NCBI GenBank assembly: GCA_930367215.1
Contig: OV884057.1
Location: 206,573,621-206,637,620 of the forward strand
Direction: 5' to 3'
Origin: Pollenia angustigena
Taxonomy: Eukaryota > Arthropoda > Insecta > Diptera > Polleniidae
DNA: 64,000 nucleotides
Position 1 is the first letter of the stretch. The number at the start of each line of letters is the position of its first letter. Of this stretch, positions 4,688 through 60,177 are shown piece by piece. Below the pieces are notes generated by a model. It was not told where the DNA came from and searched no databases. It worked only from the letters and a program-made list of their open reading frames with translations. Made by a program: the position numbers and the translations under genes.

Positions 4688-6715
4688 ATTTTTTTTTTTT
4701 TTTATTATTGAATCTTTCTTATCGAAATTTACAATATGTATTCAAATCTTAATTCTACTTGTTGTTTATTAGTTGTTCCCAGTGTAACCACTAACTGCTG
4801 TATTCAAATTTTAAAAATGTCTTCTTGTTAGGCTCAAAGTATCGGTTCTTTTTGGTCTCTGGTGACCTTCGAACTGAAGCAAACCCCGAGCGAGGTAGTT
4901 AGGGTGGACCATTAGTTTATCGATGTAGCTTATTGAATATTTTTTAATTTCCTCCTGGATAGTGGGGACGTTGAGATTTCTGTGGATAATATCATTACGT
5001 ATATACCATGGGGCGCAGACAATTTGTCGTAATATTCTAGACTGTCTTCTTTGAAGCTTTTGGATGTTAGATGCGCATGCAGTACCCCATAATTGGATGC
5101 CATATGTCCATATTGGTTTTATGATGGACTTGTATAAGAGAATTTTGTTGTCTAAGGACAAGTTTGAGTTTCGACCGAGAAGCCAATGTAGTTGAGCTGC
5201 TTTAAGTTTCATAGCCGTTATTTTCGCTTCAATATGACGCGACCAGGTCAAGCGTCTATCTGTATGAATTCCCAAGTACTTAACATGGTTTTCTACCGGA
5301 ACAGTGATGTTATTTATTTTTACAGCTGGGCACGTTTGTCTTCTGAGCGTGGAAGTTAAGTGAGCACATTTAGCCGGGTTAACCTTTATTCTCCATTTTT
5401 CTAGCCATGCCTCTAGTTCATTGATGTGGGACTGCAGATTTTGCGATGCGACTTTTGGGTCATGGTTAACGCTAATAAATGCTGTGTCGTCTGCAAATGT
5501 AGAGGTATGCGTGCTCAGGTTTGTTGGCATATCCGCTGTGTATATTATATATAGAAGCGGTCCTAATATGCTGCCTTGGGGGACACCAGAAGTAATTTTC
5601 TTGAGGGGGGAGTATTTATCTTGCGACCTTACTATGAATGTTCTGCCTGTTAGATAGCTCTCCAGAAGCTTGTGTGTGTTTTGAGGAAGCATTCGTGTTA
5701 TTTTGATGAGTAGCCCATCATGCCAAACTTTGTCAAAAGCTTGGGAAATGTTTATAAACAGTGCTGAGCAGTATTGCTTTTTCTCAAACGCCGATCTAAT
5801 AAGGGTGACAATTCTATGCACTTGTTCTATTGTACCATGTTTCGCTCTAAATCCGAACTGGTGATCCGGGATGATGTCCTGTTCATTAAGATGAGGAGTT
5901 ATAATTAAAACGAATATTTTTTCGAAAAGCTTCGATAGGATTGATAATAAGCTTATCGGTCTGTATGACGCAACCTGGCTAGCATCTTGTCCTGGCTTGG
6001 GAATCATAACAATTATAGACCTCTTCCATGAGGATGGGAAGTATCCGACTCTTAATATAGCGTTAAAAATGAATAGCAAGATTCTGGAAGCAGACGATGG
6101 TAAGTTTCTTATCATTGACCCTGTGATACGGTCAAGTCCGGGAGATTTTCTAATATTCACTTTTTCTATTGCAGATTTTACTTGAGTAATGTTAAATTTT
6201 AATGGATGGTTTACCTTATCAGGAATGATTGGACGACAGGAACAAGTATGTGTAACGTGTGGAGTGAAAACTTTCTCAAGGTGGCCCGCGAAAGCGTTTA
6301 ATTTTTCATGTGGGCCAACCAAGTACGGTTTTCCAGTCTTAATGGAGATTCTTGGGTTATAGGGCATTTCATATGCCGTACAGCCTTCCATAAGCTATAA
6401 TTGGAGTTTTTTGTGGCATCTAGGCTGTTTAGATAGCCTTCTATTGCAGACTCGTGGTTTTGTCTCAATTTGTTGCGAAGAGTTGTTAGGCATAATTGTA
6501 GTTGGGCCTTAGTGGTTGGGGAACGACTGTTTTGCCATTGTCTTCTTAACTTCCTTTTTTCTCTGATAAGGGTCTCCATATCCGTCGATGTATTATAAGG
6601 AGCACGTTAAATTGTCCGCTTGATTGGGGTTGCATTTCTTGCTGCAGCATCCAAGACTTCTGTAAATCGGTCGACAGCTATTTGGATGTCAGATGAATTT
6701 TTTAGGGGAAAAAAG
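4688..6715 (-). mobile_element. 5'-truncated Jockey-type LINE
   Basis: The element reads right to left. At the 5' side (6710-6580) a decayed frame gives DIQIAVDRFTEVLDAAARNA, followed by the linker and reverse transcriptase. At the 3' side a short untranslated stretch ends in AATAATAAAAAAAAA at about 4688-4705. The truncated 5' end and A-rich tail are typical of LINE retrotransposition. A possible target duplication ATCTTTTT lies beyond the tail and near 6710, but both places are T-rich, so this is weak. ORF1 and the endonuclease are absent. Confidence 0.85.
4811..6579 (-). pseudogene. Jockey-clade reverse transcriptase, inactivated
   Basis: A 526-residue frame (4811-6391) holds the fingers-palm reverse transcriptase of a non-LTR retrotransposon. 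SPGLDRI is near residue 84, SYRPISLLS at 142-150, SGVPQGSILGPLLY at about 268-281 and FADDTAFIS at about 299-307. A C-terminal region follows with KYLGIHTDRRLTW and WGTACASNIQKLQ. The upstream part (6298-6579) is in another frame and joins by overlap, so at least one frameshift separates them. Motif A reads FINIS where the catalytic aspartate is expected, so the enzyme is predicted dead. In a live element this protein copies the element's RNA at a nicked target. The long open frame suggests a fairly recent insertion. Confidence 0.88.
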
Positions 6716-8856: not shown

Positions 8857-9771
8857 TATGGGTGATTTTTTAGCTAATATCTTTTTGGCAACACTGGTTT
8901 AAACAGCTGACGCACGTTTCGTGTTTTGTTTCACTGTCAAACATCTTCAGTTTGGTCTATAATTTAAACATGAATCGTCTTACAAACGAACAACGCTTGC
9001 AAATTATTGAATTTTATTATCAAAATGTTAAGAAAGTTCATCGCGCGCTTCTTGTGTTCAGCGACGAAGCTCATTTTTGGCTCAATGGGTACGTAAATAA
9101 GCAAAATTGTCGACTTTGGAGTGAAGATCAGTCAGAGGCATTGCAAGAGCTACCAATGCATTCAGAAAAAGTCACAATTTGGTGCGGTTTATGGGCTGGT
9201 GGCATCATTCGAAGATGATGCGAATCGTATCGTTACTGTCAATGGTGAGCGCTACCGTGAGATGATATCCAACTTTTTTTTTGCCCAAAATGCAAGATTT
9301 TGACTTGCATGACATTTGGTTTCAAAAAGACGGTGCCACATGCCGCACAGCACGCTTAACAGTGGACTTATTGAGAGGCGAGTTCGGTGAAAATTTTATT
9401 TCACGTTCGGGACCGTTCAATTGGCCGCCTATATCGTGCGATTTAACGCCTTTAGACTATTTTGTGCGAGGCTATGTTAAAACTCATGTCTATACACACA
9501 TGCCCGCTTCAATTGACGCATTGGAAGACAACATTGAAGCATTTATTTATGAGATACCGGCCAAAATGTTGGAAAGAGTATGCCAAAATTGGACTAAGCG
9601 GATGGACCATTTGAGGCGCAGTCACGGTCAATATTTGCATGAAATAATCTTCAAACATTAAATTATATGGACCATACTATCGATTCAAATAAAGATTTCA
9701 TGAATTTTTCTGAATTTTATGTGTGTTTTTTTTAAACTTTCCCATAGCTCTAAAAAAATCACCCGATACAT
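8857..9771 (+). mobile_element. DD41D (rosa-like) mariner, internally deleted, copy 1
   Basis: The ends carry inverted GGGTGATTTTTT (8859-8870; reversed AAAAAATCACCCGA ending about 9766) next to TA on each side, as expected for Tc1/mariner. It is nested in the hAT element at 7463-10400. The transposase frame inside starts at 8970 and runs to 9661 with breaks. Confidence 0.75.
8970..9661 (+). pseudogene. Mariner DD41D transposase, deleted and frameshifted
   Basis: The start (MNRLTNEQRLQIIEFYYQN) is the N-terminal helix-turn-helix. It is followed almost directly by VFSDEAHFWLNGYVNKQN, so the second helix-turn-helix, the linker and the start of the catalytic domain are missing. The frame then breaks near 9215 and resumes as DLHDIWFQKDGATC. 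The three catalytic aspartates are visible in pieces: SDEAHF, QKDGAT and TPLDYF. Forty-one residues separate the second and third, which is the DD41D spacing of the rosa group. It ends HGQYLHEIIFKH. It cannot make an active enzyme. The same internal junction is found in the copy at 32.36 kb. Confidence 0.85.
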
Positions 9772-20394: not shown

Positions 20395-21042
20395 CACAAC
20401 AAATAATAGGCCAAATGGCCGCCACGACCTCGGCGGGACACCTCCATCTGATGGTCTAAATTTTCGATGAGGTTGAGGCATAATTGAGGTTCTATACCGT
20501 TAATGTGCCGAATTATCTAATTTTTTAGCTCTTGAATTGTTGCTGGCTTATCGAAGTACACCTTTTCAAATAACCCCAAAAAAAGAAGACCAACGGTGTC
20601 AAATTACATGATCTTGGGCCAATTGACATCGCCACCACGTGAGATAACACGTCCGTTGAATTTGTCTCGCAAGCTGTGTGGCAAGTGGCACCTTCCTTTT
20701 GAAACCAAATATAGTCGACATCCATATCTTCCAATTCGGGCCATAAAAAGTTCGTTATCATCTCATCGGCCTCATTTTGGTAAAAATACGTCCCGATGAT
20801 GCCGGCAGCCCATAAACCGCACCAAATAGTCACTCTTTGTGGTTGCATTGGTTTTTTGACAATCACTCTTGGATTATCATTCGCCAAAATGCGGCAATTC
20901 TGCATATTGACGAATCCACTGAGGTTAAAATGTGCCTCATCACTGAATCACGAAGTGCACGATATGCATTTTGATTTGAACGCCCATTTTCATAATAAGC
21001 CTGAATAACTTTAACGCGTTGCTCGATTGTGTATTTTTCCAT
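20395..21042 (-). pseudogene. Mariner DD41D-type transposase, second subfamily
   Basis: Reading leftward, MEKYTIEQRVKVIQAYYENG starts at 21042. The frame breaks at the junction to FSDEAHFNLSGFVNMQNC, then gives VTIWCGLWAAGIIGTYFYQ, WFQKEGATCHTA and GPRSCNLTPLVFFFWGYLK. A shifted tail (VYFDKPATIQELKN) runs to about 20395. As in the mariners at 8.97 and 32.36 kb, the region between the first helix-turn-helix and the first catalytic aspartate is gone. The second catalytic aspartate is glutamate (QKEG) and the third is valine (TPLV), so the enzyme is dead. It is clearly diverged from the other two copies. No inverted repeats were resolved. Confidence 0.8.
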
Positions 21043-26380: not shown

Positions 26381-26560
26381 AGGATTTAAAATCGGGTCGG
26401 TTCTGAAAATCGCGTGATTTTAAAATAACACGTGTGATTTTGTGGTGCTCTGAAAGTCATATCGTTTTTGGGTTCTGCGTGTGCTTTCGGTAATTAAAAA
26501 TCACACCGAAACACACAAAAACGGAACACCAAAATATCGCACGTGTGATTTTCGCCACAA
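26380..26560. repeat. CGTGTGATTTT inverted and direct repeats
   Basis: CGCGTGATTTT, ACGTGTGATTTT (twice) and AAAAATCACACC occur within 180 bp and can pair. They sit just downstream of the PITHD1-like pseudogene and may be part of an unrecognised foldback element. Confidence 0.4.
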
Positions 26561-26589
26561 AGAGCAATACATTTTTGTATTATCATCGC

Positions 26590-27056
26590 ATGTCACCACT
26601 TTTGTTGAATATTCAATTTCGGCTTGACAGTCTCTTGATAATTCAAATTCTTGATCCCCTTTAGCCCAATGGTCATCAATAGTAATGGCAGGACGGTTTT
26701 TTAATAATTCAATTTTATCAGGATGTAAATTATCTTTGGCCTCCGCCACAATAGTTTCCTTTAACTTAATGTTGCCAGTAAAGGTAATATTTAAAAGTAA
26801 CTCGTCGTCGTCATTGGCTCCCGCCACATAATTTCCTTTAACTTGCCGGTAAAGGGACTATTGAAAAGAAACTCTTCATCGGCATTACTTTGAACAAACT
26901 CCGCTAAGTGCAAACGCTTTTCATTTGTTTTAAATAATTTACCACTACCTTCCGATTCTTCATTTAAACATTTCAGGTTTTCCACATCGATCTTTTGTTA
27001 CAGACTATATTTTATGCCCATTTCTACGGCATGTTCATCATCGGTGGCCTCATGCC
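26590..27056 (-). pseudogene. PITHD1: PITH-domain protein (PITHD1-like) fragment, broken
   Basis: Reading leftward from 27056: HEATDDEHAVEMGIKYSL, an in-frame TAA, QKIDVENLKCLNEESEGSGK, then LHLAEFVQSNADEEFLFNSP and FTGKLKEI. A second, out-of-register version of the same module then follows (NDDDELLLNITFTGNIKLK). It continues with KNRPAITIDDHW, DQEFELSRDCQAEIEYSTKV and ends at VVT. This is the first half of a PITH domain, as in PITHD1 and the C-terminus of TXNL1. In those proteins CLNE..EGSGK, ADEELLFN.PFTG and YSTKV are conserved. The partial tandem duplication of the ADEE..FTG module, the stop and the missing second half make it a pseudogene. An AATTGTAG just upstream of the homology could be an old splice acceptor. 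Confidence 0.75.
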
Positions 27057-27155
27057 TACAATTTATTAATTCACATGAATATTAAAAGTTTTTTAATAAA
27101 AATATTCTACAATCTTTGGAAGAAAGCACTGAACTTGTGTAGTGTACGACCGGCA

Positions 27156-30144
27156 CACAGTGGCTGAAAATTTTATTTCATTGGCCAAAATTCCAATTAT
27201 TGTTTGTCACCGATTTCAAAAATTTTAATTTGGTTTAATAGTAAACATAGGTAGCCAAAAAATTAGGTCAAAATATTGGTAATTGTGGTTGTGCCATGTT
27301 GTTAAACACAACTTTTTTTTTAATTCAGAAAAAAGTGGTTTTTTTAATATTTAATCCGAAAGAAATTATCATTGCACAAAAACTATCAGCGATAATGACC
27401 TGCTCACTTTTTTGCTAGGTTGGTAGTCTTGTTCTCTTTAAAAAGGTAATATTTGCGACTATTGTGTTATTTATATTTGGGATGTTAGGACATATTTTCT
27501 AAACTACTATATTTTTTTTCAAATTTCAACTTTAGTAGAATAGAACTTTTGCGGACCAAAAGGGACCAAGAAGGTGAAACCACTGATAGAACGGTAATTT
27601 TAATGAAATTTATCTGTTTTTATGACTCTAATAATATTCCGTGACCCTATTTTATAGCAGATAAATAAAAGGAATTTAAGTTTTTTAATCCTTTTTATTC
27701 TACCTGTATTTGGTATGAACAAAGAATGAAAAAGGTTTAAAAGCAAGTGACATTCGGATGCAAACTCAGTAGATATAATATATCTGAGCAATAACAACGT
27801 TTTTCATAAGCATGGAGGGCTTCAGCTATAAAGAATTGGCCGGAGAGTATTTTAGAAACAAAAGCGAGGAAGATGTTAAAAATATCATTCGAAAAAAAGG
27901 AAACTTAAATTCCTATAGCACTGAAATACAATTGGACTTAGAAAATAAATTATATGTTTTCATCAAACATTTAAAACAACGGTACAGGAAAGTTGATTAC
28001 AGCAAAGATAGATTTTATAAGAGCTTTGCAAACTGGTTAGACAACGAACTTTCTGTCCAGATCGCTTCAGAAACTTGAAATCAAAACACACGTGGGAGAC
28101 CACAAAAATCGCTGGACAACTGTAGCGATTGATATAAGAGGCGGAAGCTTAAGGATATAAATGAAGAAATCGGATATAAAATATTCAAGATATTTTCCTA
28201 CATCAATTACGATCGCAGAAAAAATTGAAAAAAGTGGATATCATTGAAAAAGTTGTTAAAGCTAGTCCATTGAGCACAAAACGGATTCTTAAAAGTATAC
28301 CAACTCCAAGCGATGCAAAACAATTCACAAAGGAGGGGGCATTACCATTATTTCTGGATTTAAAATTAACAAAACAGCAATATTTACAGCTCAGATTGCG
28401 TGCGATTGAAAAAGGCTCAAATCTGTATCCAGCATATCATCACATAACAGCTGCTGTGGACTGTTTGCCATTAAAGGACACTATTACAATCACATCAATT
28501 TCGGCAGAGGTAAAACTACAATCTCTACTTGATCACACAGCCGAACGCTTGCTACAATCAATAAAAGGAAATGAGTTAAAGAAATATGGAAACACAAAGT
28601 TAATTCCTTTTTGTAAATGGGGATGTGATGGTTCTTCCGGACAGAAACAATACAAACAAGTAGTATGTGAAAATATTTCGGACTCAGATATGTTTATAGT
28701 ATCATTTGTACCATTGCGATTAAAAAAGATTTTGGAAGATTCAGAGCCTTCGACTAGTACAACGCAAACAAAGAATATTTGTAAAAATGAGACACCATCT
28801 TCTACGAAATATTGCAGACCTATTAAATTTGAATTCAAAAAAGAAACTCATGATGCCTTAACAAAGAAGTTAGTGATATCAAGGCCCAAATTGCAATACT
28901 ACAGCCATTGCAGTTAGATTTAGATGGGCAGCAAATTGAAGTTAGCTTCCAATTAGTGCTAACAATGATAGATGGAAAAGTAGGCGAGGCTTTGACTAAC
29001 ACGAAGGCTGCATACAGCTGCATCATATGCCATGCAACACCAAGCCAATTAAGCCAAGTCCCGACAAAATCATTAGATAATACTGATGCATATGAATTTG
29101 GATTATCACCACTACATGCAAGAATACGACTTATGGAACGCATACTTAAAATCAGTTATGATTTGGATTTCGGATCTTCAGGATCAATAAGAAACAACGA
29201 AACCAACAAGGAGTTAAGAAGTTCAAAAAGGAAACATGTTCAAGATGAATATCGCAAATTTGGGTTGATTATAGATCAGCCGAAACAAGGGTCAGGCAAT
29301 ACAAATGATGGCAATACCGCAAGAAGATTCTTTTCAGATCCAGAAACAGCATCTGAAATAAGAGGTGTTGATTTTAACCTAATTTTTAGATATAAAATAA
29401 TCCTAGAAGTACTTGCGTGCAATGATGAAATTGACTCTAGAAAATTAGGAGATTTTGCTAAGGAAACTGCAAAAATATAAGGATTACAGATTTTATAGAG
29501 AGCACAATACTAGAAACATTTCACGAAATTTAATGAAGATCTATTTAATATATTATTGGCAACGTCACATCCGTTCATCTCCAGTATTCGAAATCAATGG
29601 AAAGTGGAACATCGGGATTTAGATGAAGAAGTCAAAAAACTACTAAAGAACAGAAATAACATGGAACAGAATATGGAATATTTGCAATTAAATGAACAAT
29701 AATTATAATTCATTACATCTAAGACAGACATTGTATTAGTAAAAAATAATAATAACAATGTAACAATGTACAACAGCTAATAAAATCAATTTTTTTCTAT
29801 CTTTTTTTTTTAATGTTAAAATTTTTTTCATGGTGTAAACATTTAATTTTTTGAGTGTCCCATTATTACAAAAAATGTTAGTGATTATTATTTAAATCTA
29901 AAAATTACATTTTTAAATAATTAAAAGAAATAAAAAAACCATATTACACGCTTAAGTAAAACAAAAATCTAAAGTTCCACTTTGCCCTTAAATTCCGCAA
30001 TGACTACTCAACCGATCTTAATGAAATTTAAAGTGGAGAAAGTTTAAGAATCTATCTGTCGATTAAAAAATTTTACTAAAATAGCTCCTTCGGTTCAAAA
30101 GTTACAGATTTTTGGCCAATGAAAAACGATTTTCAGCCACTGTG
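27156..30144 (+). mobile_element. Transib / RAG1-type DNA transposon, 2,989 bp
   Basis: Both ends start CACAGTGGCTGAAAAT. The inverted repeats pair over 35 bp with three mismatches. The exact 5-bp direct repeat CGGCA lies outside each end (27151-27155 and 30145-30149). A 5-bp GC-rich target duplication and a CACAGTG terminus are hallmarks of Transib elements and of RAG recombinase products. CACAGTG is also the consensus V(D)J heptamer. At positions 27-35 of both ends is TGGCCAAAA, an A-rich block placed near where the nonamer of a 23-spacer signal would sit. The element carries one transposase relic (27812-29701) on the plus strand. No other gene is seen, and no RAG2-like Kelch sequence. Confidence 0.88.
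27812..29701 (+). pseudogene. RAG1-like (Transib superfamily) transposase, broken
   Basis: Three open segments in three frames (27812-28078, 28225-28917, 28908-29480) plus a tail. N-terminal part: MEGFSYKELAGEYF, then NTRGRPQKSLDNCSD after a stop. Core: IPFCKWGCDGSSGQKQYKQ (Asp codon 28627-28629, candidate first catalytic residue), then CIICHATP (a CxxC pair, about 29020). Next come AYEFGLSPLHARIRLMER and SGNTNDGNTARRFF, which resembles the GNFARKL stretch of the RAG1 core. After 29480 the frame shifts to KDYRFYREHNTRNISRN, then ATSHPFISSIRNQWK. Compared with relatives I know of, the segment just before KDYRFYREH, where the catalytic glutamate is expected, appears deleted. In RAG1 an Asp follows the LH pair; here LHARI has Arg. 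The frameshifts alone make it inactive. Assignment to RAG1/Transib rests on these motifs plus the element's ends. Confidence 0.75.
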
Positions 30145-30149
30145 CGGCA

Positions 30150-32265: not shown

Positions 32266-32355
32266 TAATGTTGGCAACACTGGTTTAAACAGCTGACGCA
32301 CGTTTCGTGTTTTGTTTCAGTGTCAAACATCTTCAGATTGATCTATAATTTAACC

Positions 32356-34233
32356 ATGAATCGTCTTACAAACGAACAACGCTTGCAAATTATTGAATTT
32401 TATTATCAAAATGCGTGCTCTGTTAAGAAAGTTCATCGCGCGCTTCTTGTGTTCAGCGACGAAGCTTATTTTTGGCTCAATGGGTACGTTAATAAGCAGA
32501 ATTGTCGATTTTGGAGTGAAGATCAGCCAGAAGCATTGCAAGAGCTACCAATGCATCCAGAAAAAGTCACAATTTAGTGCGGTTTATGGGCTGGTGGCAT
32601 CATTGGACCGTACCTCTTTAAAGATGATGCAAATCGTAACGTAACTGTGAATGGTGAGCGCTACCGTGAGATGATATCCAACTTTTTTTTTGCCCAAACT
32701 GCAAGAGCTTGACTTGCATGGCATGTGGTTCCAACAAGATGGTGCCAAATGCCACACAGCACGCTTAACAATGGACTTATTGAGAGCGAGTTCGGTGAAC
32801 ATTTTATTTCACGTTCGAGACCGGTCAATTGGCCGCCTAGATCGTGCGATTTAACACCTTTAGACTGTTTTTTTATGGGGCTATGTTAAAGCTCATGTCT
32901 ATACACACATGCCCGCTTCAATTGACGCATTGGAAGTAGAGTTTTTTTTTCCCGGAGTTTTTCGATTCCCGGGAAAGCGGGAAAAATTTTTAAATTTCCC
33001 GGGATCCCGGGATCCCGCTCCATACAAATAATACAAAGTAAACTTGGTTTTATTAATGAAAAAAACTTTTATAAACAAACGTGAGGGAACTTGTTTACAA
33101 AGTAAGTAAAATAAATGCTTAAATACTACAAAAATTAATTGAAGATTGAAAGCGGAACTTGAATTATTATTACCTTTGGCTATTATAAGTAAATTCCGTA
33201 TTATGATGATCTAGTTCAAGATAAAATAAACATAACAATTGAGGTACTCAAGATATGAGATCAAAAAGTAAAATCATAAAATATATAAAATATTTTAATA
33301 AATTTATTAACATTTTTTAACGGCGTAGGAAATTACTTTCTGACACACTCAAAGCGTTTAGTGAGTCGCCAAAGATTATATTTCTGATTTTGTTTACTGA
33401 TTACCATGTTTCCGAAAAATTTCGTTTACTTTTTTACCGAGGTTGGACAAATAATTAAAAGTGCACCGTTGTTGCATGCTTCTAATGTCAAGGTTGATGC
33501 AAAAAGTAGCATCATCCGGACTACTTCTTACAAACTATTTCTTTTCATTAGGTCCATCTGTAATCTTTAGGACAATATGTTTTTCAAATTGTATGTTTGA
33601 GTAACTTACACGAGTTTCATTATTTTTTTATTTCGGTTTCCCCGCACTTCCCGGATATATTACCAAGCTCGATTTTTTTTTTGTAGATACGACTATGTTG
33701 CAATAACGGAGCGATATGTTTATGTATATCCTATTTTTAAGACTTGTCCATGGTCAATGAGAATTTACTGCCTGCATCTTATTTTGAATTTATGTTCTTT
33801 ATCAATTCATCACTTCACTAAATTTATTAATTATCAACTGTTGCACTGCCCATTCTGCTTTTAATAGATTTATTGCCGCAGGAGACATTGATTTACGTTT
33901 GTACACATTTCTTATAATTGATCAAATCGACAACACATCCACAGATGCTAATTTTTAGAGAAAAGAAAACTAAATTTCAGAGTAAAAATAGCTGTTTTCT
34001 GTAAACTATGAAGAACTTTTTATTTCCCGGGATCCCGCAACAAAAATCCCGGGAAAACGGGAAATATAATAAGTGAAATTCCCGGGAATTCCCGGGACGG
34101 GAAATCCCGGGAAAAAACCCTAATTGGAAGACAACATTGAAGCATTTATTCATGAGATACCGGCCGAAATACTGGAAAGAGTATGCCAAAATTGGACTAA
34201 GTGGATGGACCATTTGAGGCGCAGTCAAGGTCA
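32356..34233 (+). pseudogene. Mariner DD41D transposase, copy 2, split
   Basis: MNRLTNEQRLQIIEFYYQN starts at 32356 and continues NACSVKKVHRALLVFSDEAY, the same internal junction as at 8.97 kb but with three more codons (ACS). An in-frame stop replaces the tryptophan codon after VTI at about 32575. Later pieces read TVNGERYREMISNFFF, FQQDGAKCHTARL and CDLTPLDCFF. The 3' part (IPAEILERVCQNWTK) resumes at 34131 after the inserted element. The shared deletion shows both copies descend from one already-deleted parent. Confidence 0.85.
32937..34122. mobile_element. CCCGGGAAA-rich hAT element, 1,186 bp
   Basis: The left end TAGAGTTTTTTTTTCCCGG and the right end, reversed, TAGGGTTTTTTCCCGG are flanked by the exact 8-bp repeat ATTGGAAG (32929-32936 and 34123-34130). 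The intact mariner copy at 9520-9527 shows the single ATTGGAAG, which proves the insertion. Arms about 80 bp long hold runs of TTCCCGGGATCCCGGG. The interior is AT-rich and non-coding. An 8-bp duplication plus TAGRG ends fits hAT. Confidence 0.9.
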
Positions 34234-50389: not shown

Positions 50390-51150
50390 ACCATGTTTTA
50401 TTATGGTTGCAAACAACAAAACTATTTTTCAAGAAACTAATTTAACCATTATATGGTTGTCGGCGACAATGATTTGGTTAAATTTAACATAATATCGGTA
50501 CAATTTTTTTAAAAATGGTTTTGTAGCTTTTTCTCTGGGTGTATATATTAAATATATCGAAAATAAGGATTTTCTCTTCTATGGTATAACAAATACTGGC
50601 TTCGCTAACTAAAGCTTCTCTGTATCGCCGGCCTTCGGCCGGGCGCAAGGATTTTCTCCTCTATGATATAACAAAGACCGGCTTCGCTAACTAAAGCTTC
50701 TCTGCAAGGATTTTCTCCTCTATGGTATAACAAACACCGGCTTCGCTTACTAAAGCTTCTCTGCGTAGTCGGCCTTGTTCGGAAACAAGGCAGTTTTTCG
50801 AAGCTTTACTTAGCGAAACCGGTTTTTGTTAGACCATAAAAGAGAAAATCCTTGCGCCCGGCCTAAGGCCGGCTATACAGAGAAGCTTTAGTTAGCGAAG
50901 CCGGTCTTTGTTATACCATAGAGGAGAAAATCCTTGCGCCTGGCCGAAGGCCGGCTATACAGAGAAGCTTTAGTTAGCGAAGCCAGTATTTGTTATACCA
51001 TAGAAGATGAAATCCTTATTTTGGATATATATATTTAATATATACACCCGGAGTAAAAGCTATAAAAATATTTTATCCATATTATGTTTAATTTAACCAA
51101 ATCATTGTCACCGACAACCATATTATGGTTAAATAAGTATCTTTAAAAAA
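50390..51150. mobile_element. Nested palindrome with 82-bp GCGAAGCCGG units
   Basis: Outer arms: AACCATATWATGGTTGTCGG, ACAATGATTTGGTTAAAT and a CTCTGGGTGTATATAT edge on both sides. Inner arms: tandem units CTTCGCTAACTAAAGCTTCT ... GGCCTTCGGCCGGGCGCAAG ... TTTTCTCCTCTATG. The first unit is 82 bp and a second is about 59 bp. The centre is GCCTTGTTCGGAAACAAGGC near 50785. The right half mirrors the left. Fragments also occur at 1.7-2.3 kb. GC content is far above the surroundings. Confidence 0.75.
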
Positions 51151-55786: not shown

Positions 55787-56009
55787 ATACGATGTGGCAA
55801 CAACATTATTTTGGTACACTTTGGCAACGCTGATGATTGTTAAGATTCTTCTAGAACATTCTTCTTTTTTGATCGTACAGACGCTTAAGTCTTTTTTTAT
55901 ATTCAATCTTTTTTCATTAAATAAATAGTTTTAAGTTAATTTAAGAATTAACTATATTTGTTTAATTTTATCTATTTGCTTCATCATCGTAAGTATATCA
56001 TCCTCTACA
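55787..56009 (+). repeat. Gypsy 5' LTR, truncated at its start
   Basis: It matches the 3' LTR from ATACGAT to TCATCCTCTACA. Compared with the 3' LTR, the first about 21 bases and an 11-bp T-rich stretch are missing. A primer-binding site TGATGACCCCGAC follows at 56012, matching a tRNA-Trp type site except for one base. Confidence 0.85.
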
Positions 56010-56041
56010 TTTGATGACCCCGACAAAAAGAACGCAGCGCA

Positions 56042-56866
56042 ATGGACAACGATGGCAAGAGTGCAGACGTTCTTCCTGGTGCCTCACAGAATTTACCACC
56101 ACCACCATTACGGAATCTACCAACAGCCTCAGGTCAACACACTGAAGAATTGGCACGCATTTCCGTGAGGATTCCCCCATTTTGGCATGCTCGCCTAGAA
56201 CTTTGGTCGCAATTTGCCACAGCCGGGACAACGGCTGATCTGACTAAGTACCACACCGTGGTAGCAGCTATCGAATGTACAATTTTGTCCCAGGTGAGTG
56301 ACATATATTGAACATGCCAAAGGAAAATCAGCATACAACCCTTAAGAAACGTTTGCTGGAAGAATTCGCTGACTCTGAACAGAAACGGTTAAAAAAACTT
56401 TTGCAAGACATAGAACTTGGGGATATGCGACCATCGCAACTTCTTCGAGAAATGAAAAATTTGGCCGGTAACCAGGTCGATGATGCTTTTTTAAAATCTA
56501 TGTGGATGACGCGTTTACCAAGCCACATGCTTACCATAATTTCGATAAGTCGTAAGACTCTTGACAATATCGCTATAATGGCCGATAAAATATCAGAAGT
56601 CATCAGTTCAGGAACTTTCTCTGGCAAAAGCTCCAACAACAAACAACACAACTTTACAACAACAACTACAGCAATTAGCAAGAGAAGTCGCTAGTTTGAA
56701 GACACAATTTCAACGCTCGCGTAGTCGTAACAGATCCAATTCCGGCAATCGTAATCGTAGTAATACTCGTGAAGAAACTCAATCCAATGGAAAATGTTGG
56801 TACCACAGAAAATTCGGCTCTAAGGCTAAAAAATGCAAAGAGCCATGCAGCGAAAATTTAAACTAA
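56042..56866 (+). pseudogene. gag: Gypsy gag, frameshifted
   Basis: The first frame (56042-56311) gives RISVRIPPFWHARLELWSQF, a capsid-like start. The second (56308-56694) gives LLEEFADSEQKRLKKLLQDI and FLKSMWMTRLPSHMLTI. A third gives LQQLAREVASLKTQFQRSRS with a basic stretch, then CWYHRKFGSKAKKCKEPC, a C-x2-H-x9-C-x3-C finger typical of CsRn1-type Gag rather than the usual CCHC. At least two shifts break the frame. Gag would package the element's RNA. Confidence 0.8.
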
Positions 56867-59800
56867 GCAGTCTGTCACTATCGACGGTAAATGACAGACA
56901 AAAAGTTCTACACCGCCGTCTTATAGTTTTTGATAAAAATTCAAATTTAAAATTTCTCGTGGATACCGGAGCGGAAGTCAGCGTTATCCCTCCTAACCGA
57001 CTCCAACTAAAGTCCCCGGACAACAACATTTTTTTATTTGCTGCGAATAAATCGCCGATTAAGACATATGGTGAAAAAAGCTTAACCCTTAATGTAGGCT
57101 TACGTCGACCTTTTGCATGGAATTTTGTAATTGCAGAAGCTGTTTGATGGTAACACTAATATGGCTAGCAATTGCAGTATTTCGACCATAGAATCACCGA
57201 TTCTAGGTGTATCTACCGTCGACATCAACGATACGTTTCAAGTACTTCTCAAACAATTCCCTGGAATTACACAATCACAGCATTCAATCAACAACACCAC
57301 CCACGATGTTACTCATCATATAATCACAAGTGGACAACCTGTTTTCGCCAAGCCCCGTCGCCTAGCACTTACTATGCCTAAAGCCGCTAAAGCTGAAATG
57401 CAATCGTTACTCGACGCTGGTATCTGCCGTCCTTCATCTAGTCCTTGGGCAAGCCCACTTCACATGGTAAAGAAAAAAACGGTGAGTGGAGGCCTTGCGG
57501 GGACTACAGAAAACTGAACGCCATTACCGAACCGGATCGATACCCGATCCCACATATACACGATTTTACTCATTGTTTAGAGGATAGTGAAATTTTTTCA
57601 ACAATTGATTTGCGAAGAGCATACCACCAAATCCCTGTGGCGCCATCCGACGTGCCAAAGACAGCCATAACAACGCCATTCGGCATGTACGAGTTTACTC
57701 ATATGACATTCGGATTGAGAAATGCGGGACAAACTTTCCAGCGCCTAATGGACCACATCCTTCGTGAATTGGATTTCGCCTATGCTTATTTAGACGACAT
57801 TTTGATCGCCTCAAAAGACTTGGAGCAACATCAACAACGTAAATTTGGTATTTGAATGTAAATGTAATTTTGGTAAGTCCAAAGTAAAATTTCTTGGCTT
57901 TACAGTAAACGTAAATGGCATCTGTCCTCCAACGGAAAGAGTAGATGTTATAACTCAGTACAAATTACCGAAACGAGTTTGTTGCCTTAAACGTTTTATG
58001 GGTATGCTTAACTTCTTTAGAAGATTTTTGCCAAAAGCCGTTACCCAGCAGACAACCTTATTTGAATTTATAAATGGACCGAAGAGGGAAAACTTGCTTT
58101 TGAGCAATGCAAGGCACAGCTCCGTGACGCAACATGTCTTGCTTTTCCTAAACACAACACTCAACTTGCTCTGATGGTAGACGCCTCAGACATTGCCATA
58201 GGTGCCGTTTTACAGCAAGTGGTAAACGACAACTTTCAGACACTTGGTTTTTATTCAGAGCGACTAAACGAAGCTCAACGAAAATCCAGCACCTACGATA
58301 GGGAGCTATTGAGTGCATACAAAGCAGTCAGACATTTTCAGCACATGCTGGAAGGTCGTGAATTTTGTATATATACGGATCGCAAACCGCTTCAATTCGC
58401 ATTTAAACAGAAACTCGACAAGGCAAGCCCTAGGCAAATTCGTCACCTAGATTTTTTGAGCCAATTTACTACGGACATAAGGCACATACCTGGCAAAGAA
58501 AACGTAGTTGCGGACACTTTGTCACGCCTTGAAGCAATTCATGTAAACAACACGGTTCATTGTGCAGAATTGTCACGCCATCAGAACGACGATGAGGAAA
58601 TCAAATCATATCTCAACTCTAATTCAAGCTTGCAACTTAAATCGTTCGTATTGCCTAACACAAACTTTTCTATATATTGTGATATTTCAAACGGAGTAGT
58701 GTGACCATTCCTAACTAAGAAATTTCGTAAAACGGCATTTGATTCAATCCATAATCTTTGCCACCCTAATGCAAGAAAAACCACAAAGTTGTTTACTGAA
58801 AAATTCGTCTGGCCTAGTGTAAAAAGGGATTGCCATATTTGGGCAAGGGCTTGTATCACCTGCCAAAAGGGAAAAATTCATCGCCACAACAAAGCACCAC
58901 TCTGCGAATATTTTACTACTTCCGATCGTTTTGACCACATCAACATCGACATTGTTGGGCCATTACAACCATCTAAAGAATTCCGATATTGCTTAACAAT
59001 GATCGATCGTTTCGCCCGCTGGACGGAGGTATGCCCGTTAGAGGACATTACAGCCGAAAATGTCGCTTTCGCTTTTTATTCAACATGGATATCGAGGTTC
59101 GGCATACCATTATGAGTTACTACGGATCAAGGACGTCAATTGGAGTGTAATTTTTTTTAAAGAATTGACTTGGCATACAACATCTGAGAACGACAGCTTA
59201 TTATCCAGCTGCAAACGGTATTATCGAAAGATTTCACCGTCCCTTGAAAGCTGCTATTAAATGTTATGAATCAGAAAATTGGGTAGAAATTTTGTTGAGA
59301 TGAAACGCCATCTTACTAGTCTATGGATCTAGTTTACGTCTTCCAGGTGTGTTTTTAACAGAAGGTGATAAAAACGAAACCTCTCAAAATGAATTCGTCA
59401 ACAAACTCAGAAACTTTATGAACGTTCTTCGACCCACCAAAACTTCTTTCCGCGCTAAGGATAAACCGTTTATTGAAAAAGATTTACATACATCTTCACA
59501 AGTATTTATACGTAATTTAATGGCCTGCAAACCACTGCAAACTCCGTATGAGGGACCATTTCCCGTTTTAAAACGCCATTCAAAGTATTTTACTGTAAAT
59601 GATAAAGGAAAGAAAATGAACATTAGTTTGGACCGTTTGAAGGCAGCATTTATTTTAAATCCAGGAAACTCTACAAATGATAATCACAATTGTAATAGAC
59701 AACCGGCATACGTCGAACACCCAATTAATGAATCAACAGTGAACGAACCATCGGTCATCGAACCATCAGTCAATGAACCAACATCCAAAGAATCAACAGC

Positions 59801-59921
59801 CAGCGCGCTACCTCTAAGGGAACCTGCTAACATTCTCCTCGATCCTAACGGCGAACCAAGGACCATCACTTCGCGTTATGGTCGTAGGGTACGATTTTGC
59901 CTCAACCGGAAGGGGGAGTAA
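56833..59921 (+). pseudogene. pol: Gypsy pol, broken by shifts and stops
   Basis: It overlaps the end of gag. Protease: FLVDTGAEVSVIP near 56955. Reverse transcriptase: [20 protein letters not shown] (57490s), [41 protein letters not shown] near 57780. Connection: KFLGFTVNVNGI. RNase H: VDASDIAIGAVLQQ (58176), TYDRELLSAYKAVRHF, FCIYTDRKPLQFAF. Integrase: [10 protein letters not shown] and CITCQKG zinc finger (58750-58870), [16 protein letters not shown] (59115), ANGIIERFHRPLKAAIK (59210-59250, out of frame). The last frame ends TSRYGRRVRFCLNRKGE with its TAA touching the 3' LTR. At least five breaks; a segment after the protease is also missing. Not functional. Confidence 0.88.
59908..59921 (+). 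other. Polypurine tract of the Gypsy element
   Basis: GGAAGGGGGAGTAA directly precedes the 3' LTR start TGTGGCG. This is the plus-strand primer site and fixes the LTR edge. Confidence 0.8.
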
Positions 59922-60177
59922 TGTGGCGTACGTTCCCCCACATACGATCTGGCAACAACATTATTTTGGTACACTTTGGCAACGCTGAGGATTGTTAAGA
60001 TTCTTCTAGAACATTCTTCTTTTTTTTTTTCTTTTTTTGATCGTACAGACGCTTAAGTCTTTTTTTATATTCAATCTTTTTTCATTAAATAAATAGTATT
60101 AAGTTAATTTAAGAATTAACTATATTTGTTTAATTTTATCTATTTGCTTCATCATCGTAAGTATATCATCCTCTACA
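59922..60177 (+). repeat. Gypsy 3' LTR, 256 bp
   Basis: It starts TGTGGCGTACGTTCCCCCAC and ends CATCATCCTCTACA (TG...CA). It is nearly identical to the 5' LTR apart from a TTTTTTTTTCT expansion near 60022, TCTGG versus TGTGG near 59950 and a few substitutions, so the insertion is moderately young. ATTAAATAAATAG near 60090 is a plausible poly(A) signal. Confidence 0.88.

Follow-up and report, generated by a model that had tools for sequence, protein, structure and literature searches.

The Transib elements are transposons of insects that have an ancestor in common with the antibody-recombining RAG1 of vertebrates. Drosophila Transib1-5 were reportedly assigned by Kapitonov and Jurka in 2005 to the Transib superfamily, in which we also place the element described below. 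In the available text of PMC11656972 the consensus of Transib1 has a length of 3,030 bp, and an invasion of D. melanogaster is reported at around 2013. For Hztransib, the accessible part of PMC1852546 gives a target-site duplication of 5 bp, with the sequence GCTCG. As set out in the available portion of PMC9435367, the Transibs fall into two subgroups: Subgroup I is the nearer to RAG1L, and in Subgroup II the zinc region is without its alpha11-alpha12 part.

A peculiarity of this literature concerns the related RAGL elements. In the legend of figure 2 of PMC8355894 (available in part), RAGL ends are given under the name of a robber fly, Neomochtherus geniculatus. Notospermus geniculatus is named in PMC9435367, and the RAGL of the nemertean Notospermus appears in PMC7204232. 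From the accessible parts of these papers the discrepancy is probably a mix-up of names in the legend, and it could mislead searches for RAGL in flies.

We have analyzed a stretch of 64,000 nucleotides of the genome of the fly Pollenia angustigena (contig OV884057.1), hereafter the window. We regard it as almost certain that this contains a dead cut-and-paste DNA transposon of the RAG1-related Transib superfamily, probably of Subgroup II type. The element occupies positions 27156-30144, a length of 2,989 bp, and lies between exact copies of the sequence CGGCA at 27151-27155 (left) and 30145-30149 (right). It is bounded by terminal inverted repeats (TIRs) of 38 bp, the left at 27156-27193 (+ strand) and the right at 30107-30144 (- strand). 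The left arm starts with CACAGTGGCTGAAAAT at 27156, and the inverse of this sequence closes the right arm at 30144. The heptamer CACAGTG is found at 27156-27162, with its inverted copy at 30138-30144. Over their 38 positions the arms agree at 34, and over the first 35 at 32; when 200,000 pairs of 38-mers were drawn at random from the window and compared strand against opposite strand, the best pair had 28 matches. A blastn search within the window gave E = 4.9e-08 for the pair of arms. The initial annotation had described CACAGTG at both ends, 35-bp inverted repeats with three mismatches and an exact 5-bp duplication of CGGCA; we find all of these, with the repeats extending to 38 bp. Two traits of Transibs are therefore present, namely a GC-rich target-site duplication of 5 bp, seen here exactly and for a single insertion, and TIRs that open at both ends with a CAC sequence resembling the heptamer of a recombination signal sequence (RSS). 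That the evidence on ends and duplication comes from one insertion counts against the Transib reading. No second copy was seen by blastn in the window, where the best match beyond the element itself and its arms was 22 bp in length (E 0.004). A search of the window with the 15-bp end, allowing up to three mismatches, found only the two exact ends, where two chance matches are expected.

Internal to the heptamer, each arm contains a 9-mer with a weak sequence resemblance to the RSS nonamer. Scored against what we take to be the consensus nonamer, CCAAAATTC in the left TIR and CCAAAAATC in the right TIR match at 6/9 and 7/9 positions, respectively; of the 9-mers of the element, 2.4% and 0.3% do as well. 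Each is separated from its heptamer by 22 bp, the best-scoring of 20 spacers tried at both ends. An arrangement following the 12/23 spacer rule was rejected, since the best-scoring spacer is the same at each end. Because the available text of PMC8355894 describes Transibs with symmetric spacers of 20-22 bp, the spacing seen here is an already-described form. Similarly, the accessible part of PMC6941560 reports that some Transib ends carry exactly the heptamers that RAG uses; an end with the sequence CACAGTG is therefore neither special nor new.

The transposase gene is read on the + strand in several frames, which we have aligned by tblastn to the relative P0001 (673 aa). The N-terminal part at 27812-28174, with a GRP motif at 28094, corresponds to residues 1-115 of P0001 (59% identity), and the central part at 28180-28872, in a different frame, to residues 118-349 (85% identity). 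A part in a third frame at 28857-29477 matches P0001 from residue 345 on. The C-terminal part at 29479-29702, which ends with a stop, matches residues 596-612 and the end of the 345-666 match. Between the last two parts lies the junction of an internal deletion at 29477-29479, with KETAKI ending at 29477 and KDYR starting at 29479. The first catalytic acid is the D of GCDGSSG (28621-28641) in the central part. The second lies within TMIDGK (28962-28979) in the third-frame part, which also contains the CxxC motif as CIIC (29019-29030), GLSPLHARIR (29100-29129) and GNTARRFF (29310-29333). Among the 120 relatives listed, the first catalytic D is present in all 120, the second in 116 and the third acid, E, in 117, while both cysteines of CxxC are found in 119; the histidine columns at H566 and H571 of P0001 contain H in 117, the E and H columns being gapped in the other three. 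Over all seven columns (D, D, E and C, C, H, H), conservation thus ranges from 116 to 120 of the 120. The GRP columns are kept in 109 (G), 99 (R) and 103 (P). The family therefore has the DDE triad; the window copy retains both D residues, and its E has been removed by the deletion.

The copy has suffered further damage. There are in-frame stops at 28076 and 28130 in the N-terminal part, and relative to P0001 the frame changes at 28174-28180, around 28857-28872 and again in the C-terminal part, between KDYRFYREH (29479) and NEDLF (29532). The deletion at 29477-29479 removes residues 552-595 of P0001, i.e., 44 residues, including E588, the third catalytic acid E592, H566 and H571. In profile alignments E592 aligns to E962 of RAG1, and H566 and H571 to H937 and H942. 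Given the stops, the frame changes and the loss of the third acid, this copy is dead and makes no working transposase. Since both element ends remain, it could be transposed at most by an enzyme made elsewhere.

Relatives of the transposase are numerous: of 7,990 candidates scored, 932 proteins fell at or below E 1e-3. The closest of the 120 listed are P0001 and P0002, at 81% and 80% identity over the searched region. Named organisms among the 120 are an aphid, a moth and a beetle (three proteins), and the name Transib1-5 is attached to none of the 120. A tree of 121 rows, comprising these relatives and the window reading, was constructed by a quick method with midpoint rooting. The window reading is placed with nine database proteins in a clade of ten (SH-aLRT 100), standing apart from the named aphid, moth and beetle proteins; the clade label had been set beforehand by identity. 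Distinct in this tree, the clade may represent the undescribed dipteran lineage that the initial annotation had suggested. The nine proteins (P0001-P0006, P0010, P0013 and P0049) are 56-81% identical to the window element. P0001-P0006 are open frames of 673-679 aa that span the region deleted in the window copy, P0001-P0005 being 71-81% identical, so relatives with open frames exist in public assemblies. We advance only tentatively, as a doubtful proposition, that this is a so-far-nameless Transib lineage with live copies in insects that has spread between hosts, characterized by the exact V(D)J heptamer and a symmetric nonamer-like block spaced by 22 bp at both ends. Viral contigs searched by protein gave seven stretches fitting a pattern, none of which was confirmed, and the same search by end sequence gave no match. 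The single paper found to join Transib with Calliphoridae deals, by its title, with hAT elements of Drosophila; this is no proof that the family is unpublished.

The assignment to Transib comes from comparison with proteins of known structure. The joined reading of the transposase gave a single match up to E 10 in the PDB, to entry 6PQN (E 3.3e-83), with 157 of 378 aligned residues identical. Two ORFs from the element, searched separately up to E 5, also matched no solved structure but 6PQN, the one at 28180-28917 with E 8.1e-30 and the one at 28854-29480 with E 3.1e-39. The entry is labeled as a putative DNA-mediated transposase, which we take to be Hztransib of Helicoverpa zea. The three catalytic acids align to residues 109, 208 and 419 of the chain, and with an offset of 17 these become D126, D225 and E436, the catalytic triad given for Hztransib in the available text of PMC6941560; the identity that we have taken for 6PQN fits this. 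We also constructed a profile (A2) from seven of the nine clade members, leaving out the short P0013 and P0049. It was built from the clade only, because the moth protein in a broader alignment (A1, 24 of the 120 relatives listed) could bias the scores. A2 scored 470.2 bits with 6PQN, compared with 26.9 bits for amphioxus RAG1L and 15.2 and 14.2 bits for two RAG1 chains; for A1 the corresponding scores were 640.3, 56.1 and 37.0-44.5 bits. The initial annotation had reported a broken gene with CDGSSG, CxxC, GLSPLHARIR and GNTARRFF blocks in a Transib-type transposon. The location of these motifs among stops and frame changes confirms the first point, and the match to 6PQN and the clade profile strongly support the second. 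Its view that the motifs of the protein resemble RAG1-like sequences of other invertebrates more than Drosophila Transib1-5 finds no support in the profile comparison, in which the Transib-type chain is far ahead of RAG1L and RAG1. By sequence, the element is a Transib, distant from RAGL and RAG1.

The results with Pfam count against this assignment. The four transposase pieces gave no transposase or RAG1 match, and two unrelated ones below threshold. Of four relatives searched, P0006 (E 0.0014) and P0048 (E 0.0024) returned RAG1, in both cases below the cut-off. The precomputed domain PF26100 is present on many of the relatives listed, and our Pfam search of P0001 did not return it. Membership of another transposase superfamily was rejected, as no such match above the cut-off was seen in Pfam or the PDB with the pieces, the joined reading or the relatives.

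Between the cysteine pair and the C-terminal block, alignment coordinates show RAG1L to be longer than the profile by 37 residues and the 1,040-residue RAG1 by 42, and the alignment with 6PQN crosses the interval without a gap. The spacing from CxxC to LH is 25-32 residues in 113 of the 120 relatives listed, the other seven being missed by the pattern. The short interval points to Subgroup II, to which the element probably belongs as judged by interval length only.

Could these data be explained in another way? According to the accessible part of PMC7204232, RAGL elements likewise have CAC-type ends and duplicate 5 bp of their target, and our profiles match RAG1L and RAG1 weakly, most strongly in the C-terminal block. 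The element might then be a RAGL (ProtoRAG-like) transposon or a remnant of one, belonging to the RAG1-RAG2-like group instead of Transib. We consider this most improbable given the 470 versus 27 bits of the clade profile, the joined reading, which up to E 10 matches neither RAG1 nor RAG1L chains, and the extra 37 and 42 residues of RAG1L and RAG1 after the cysteine pair. Moreover, the 404 bp from the transposase stop to the right arm contain no ORF over 60 aa, so the window copy has no RAG2-like gene beside its transposase, as a RAGL element would. Such a gene may have been lost from this copy alone, with which the copy itself is compatible.

Other explanations accept the Transib origin and differ on what became of the copy. 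The persistence of a long, recognizable transposase reading would suit a host gene domesticated from a Transib. Yet the reading is interrupted at 28076 and 28130, changes frame several times and has lost its third catalytic acid, and both ends and the duplication are intact, as a plain insertion predicts; we attach next to no weight to domestication. Internal deletion is a usual source of non-autonomous derivatives, and both element ends have been kept here, so a deleted form might have been multiplied by an intact relative to give a non-autonomous family. Against this, the search of the window showed no other copy bearing the deletion, and we think such a family unlikely.

For the dead Transib copy that we favor, the ends, duplication, homology and lesions are read from the DNA, and we infer the chemistry of its movement from the family. 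Transposase subunits would bind the heptamer-headed ends, and the DDE active site would nick and hairpin the flanking DNA so that the element is released blunt-ended. Joining to a GC-rich target at positions staggered by 5 bp would generate the duplication of CGGCA.

The window contains other features. On the - strand at 26501-26994, with 156 bp separating it from the left duplication, is a degenerate gene for a PITH-domain protein (Pfam E 1.1e-12 and 5.3e-11); it is read in two frames and has an apparent partly repeated segment. The joined pieces matched 48 proteins of 69 candidates. The top seven are fly proteins at 44-51% identity, from Calliphora vicina (51%), Lucilia sericata (51%), Bactrocera neohumeralis (47%), Haematobia irritans (49%), two Drosophila (44% and 49%) and Glossina fuscipes (49%); the eighth is from a dragonfly (51%, over a shorter part). 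Taken by themselves, these matches make a fly host likely, probably one of the higher flies. The low identities to fly PITH proteins suggest that the local copy has decayed, and it is possibly a pseudogene. A reverse transcriptase ORF of 527 aa at 4811-6394 (- strand; RVT_1 E 8.2e-40) has relatives whose names mark it as Jockey/X-element type. Its best match is 97% identical over 72% of the ORF. The two organism names noticed among the 120 matches listed are a moth and a fruit fly, which makes the ORF indecisive as a marker of the host. An LTR retroelement at 55787-60177, presumably of Gypsy type from its motifs, lies in a stretch of raised GC content, with a reverse transcriptase (RVT_1 E 5.8e-24) and direct repeats at 55787-56009 and 59942-60177 that are 93% identical. 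Fragments of a transposase family are found at 8874-9661, 20525-20947 and 32269-32936, with 90% identity between 8885-9527 and 32271-32936; we take these from their motifs to be of the Tc1/mariner kind, and Pfam gave nothing above the cut-off for their three ORFs. A segment of 725 bp at 50425-51149 is about 80% identical to its own reverse complement and contains more inner repeats. Rfam gave no match over the window at gathering scores.

The initial observation was sound, and the element is of a known kind, an ordinary decayed insect transposon. Well-delimited Transib families with their ends help to map the end sequences that RAG1-related enzymes accept. Hztransib resembles the window element in its TIRs, in its catalytic columns, in its GC-rich 5-bp duplication and in the 157 of 378 residues shared with 6PQN. 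The differences are the damage to the window copy and its missing third acid, the duplication (GCTCG in Hztransib, compared with CGGCA) and the length (3,518 bp in Hztransib, compared with 2,989 bp). The catalytic core of ProtoRAG/RAGL and RAG1 has a common ancestry with that of the window element, and the ends are again of CAC type with a duplication of 5 bp, but they carry RAG2L, have a longer interval after the cysteine pair and show weak profile similarity. An exact consensus heptamer is found here with a transposase far from RAG1L, and a RAG-like end is thus no sign of a RAG-like protein.
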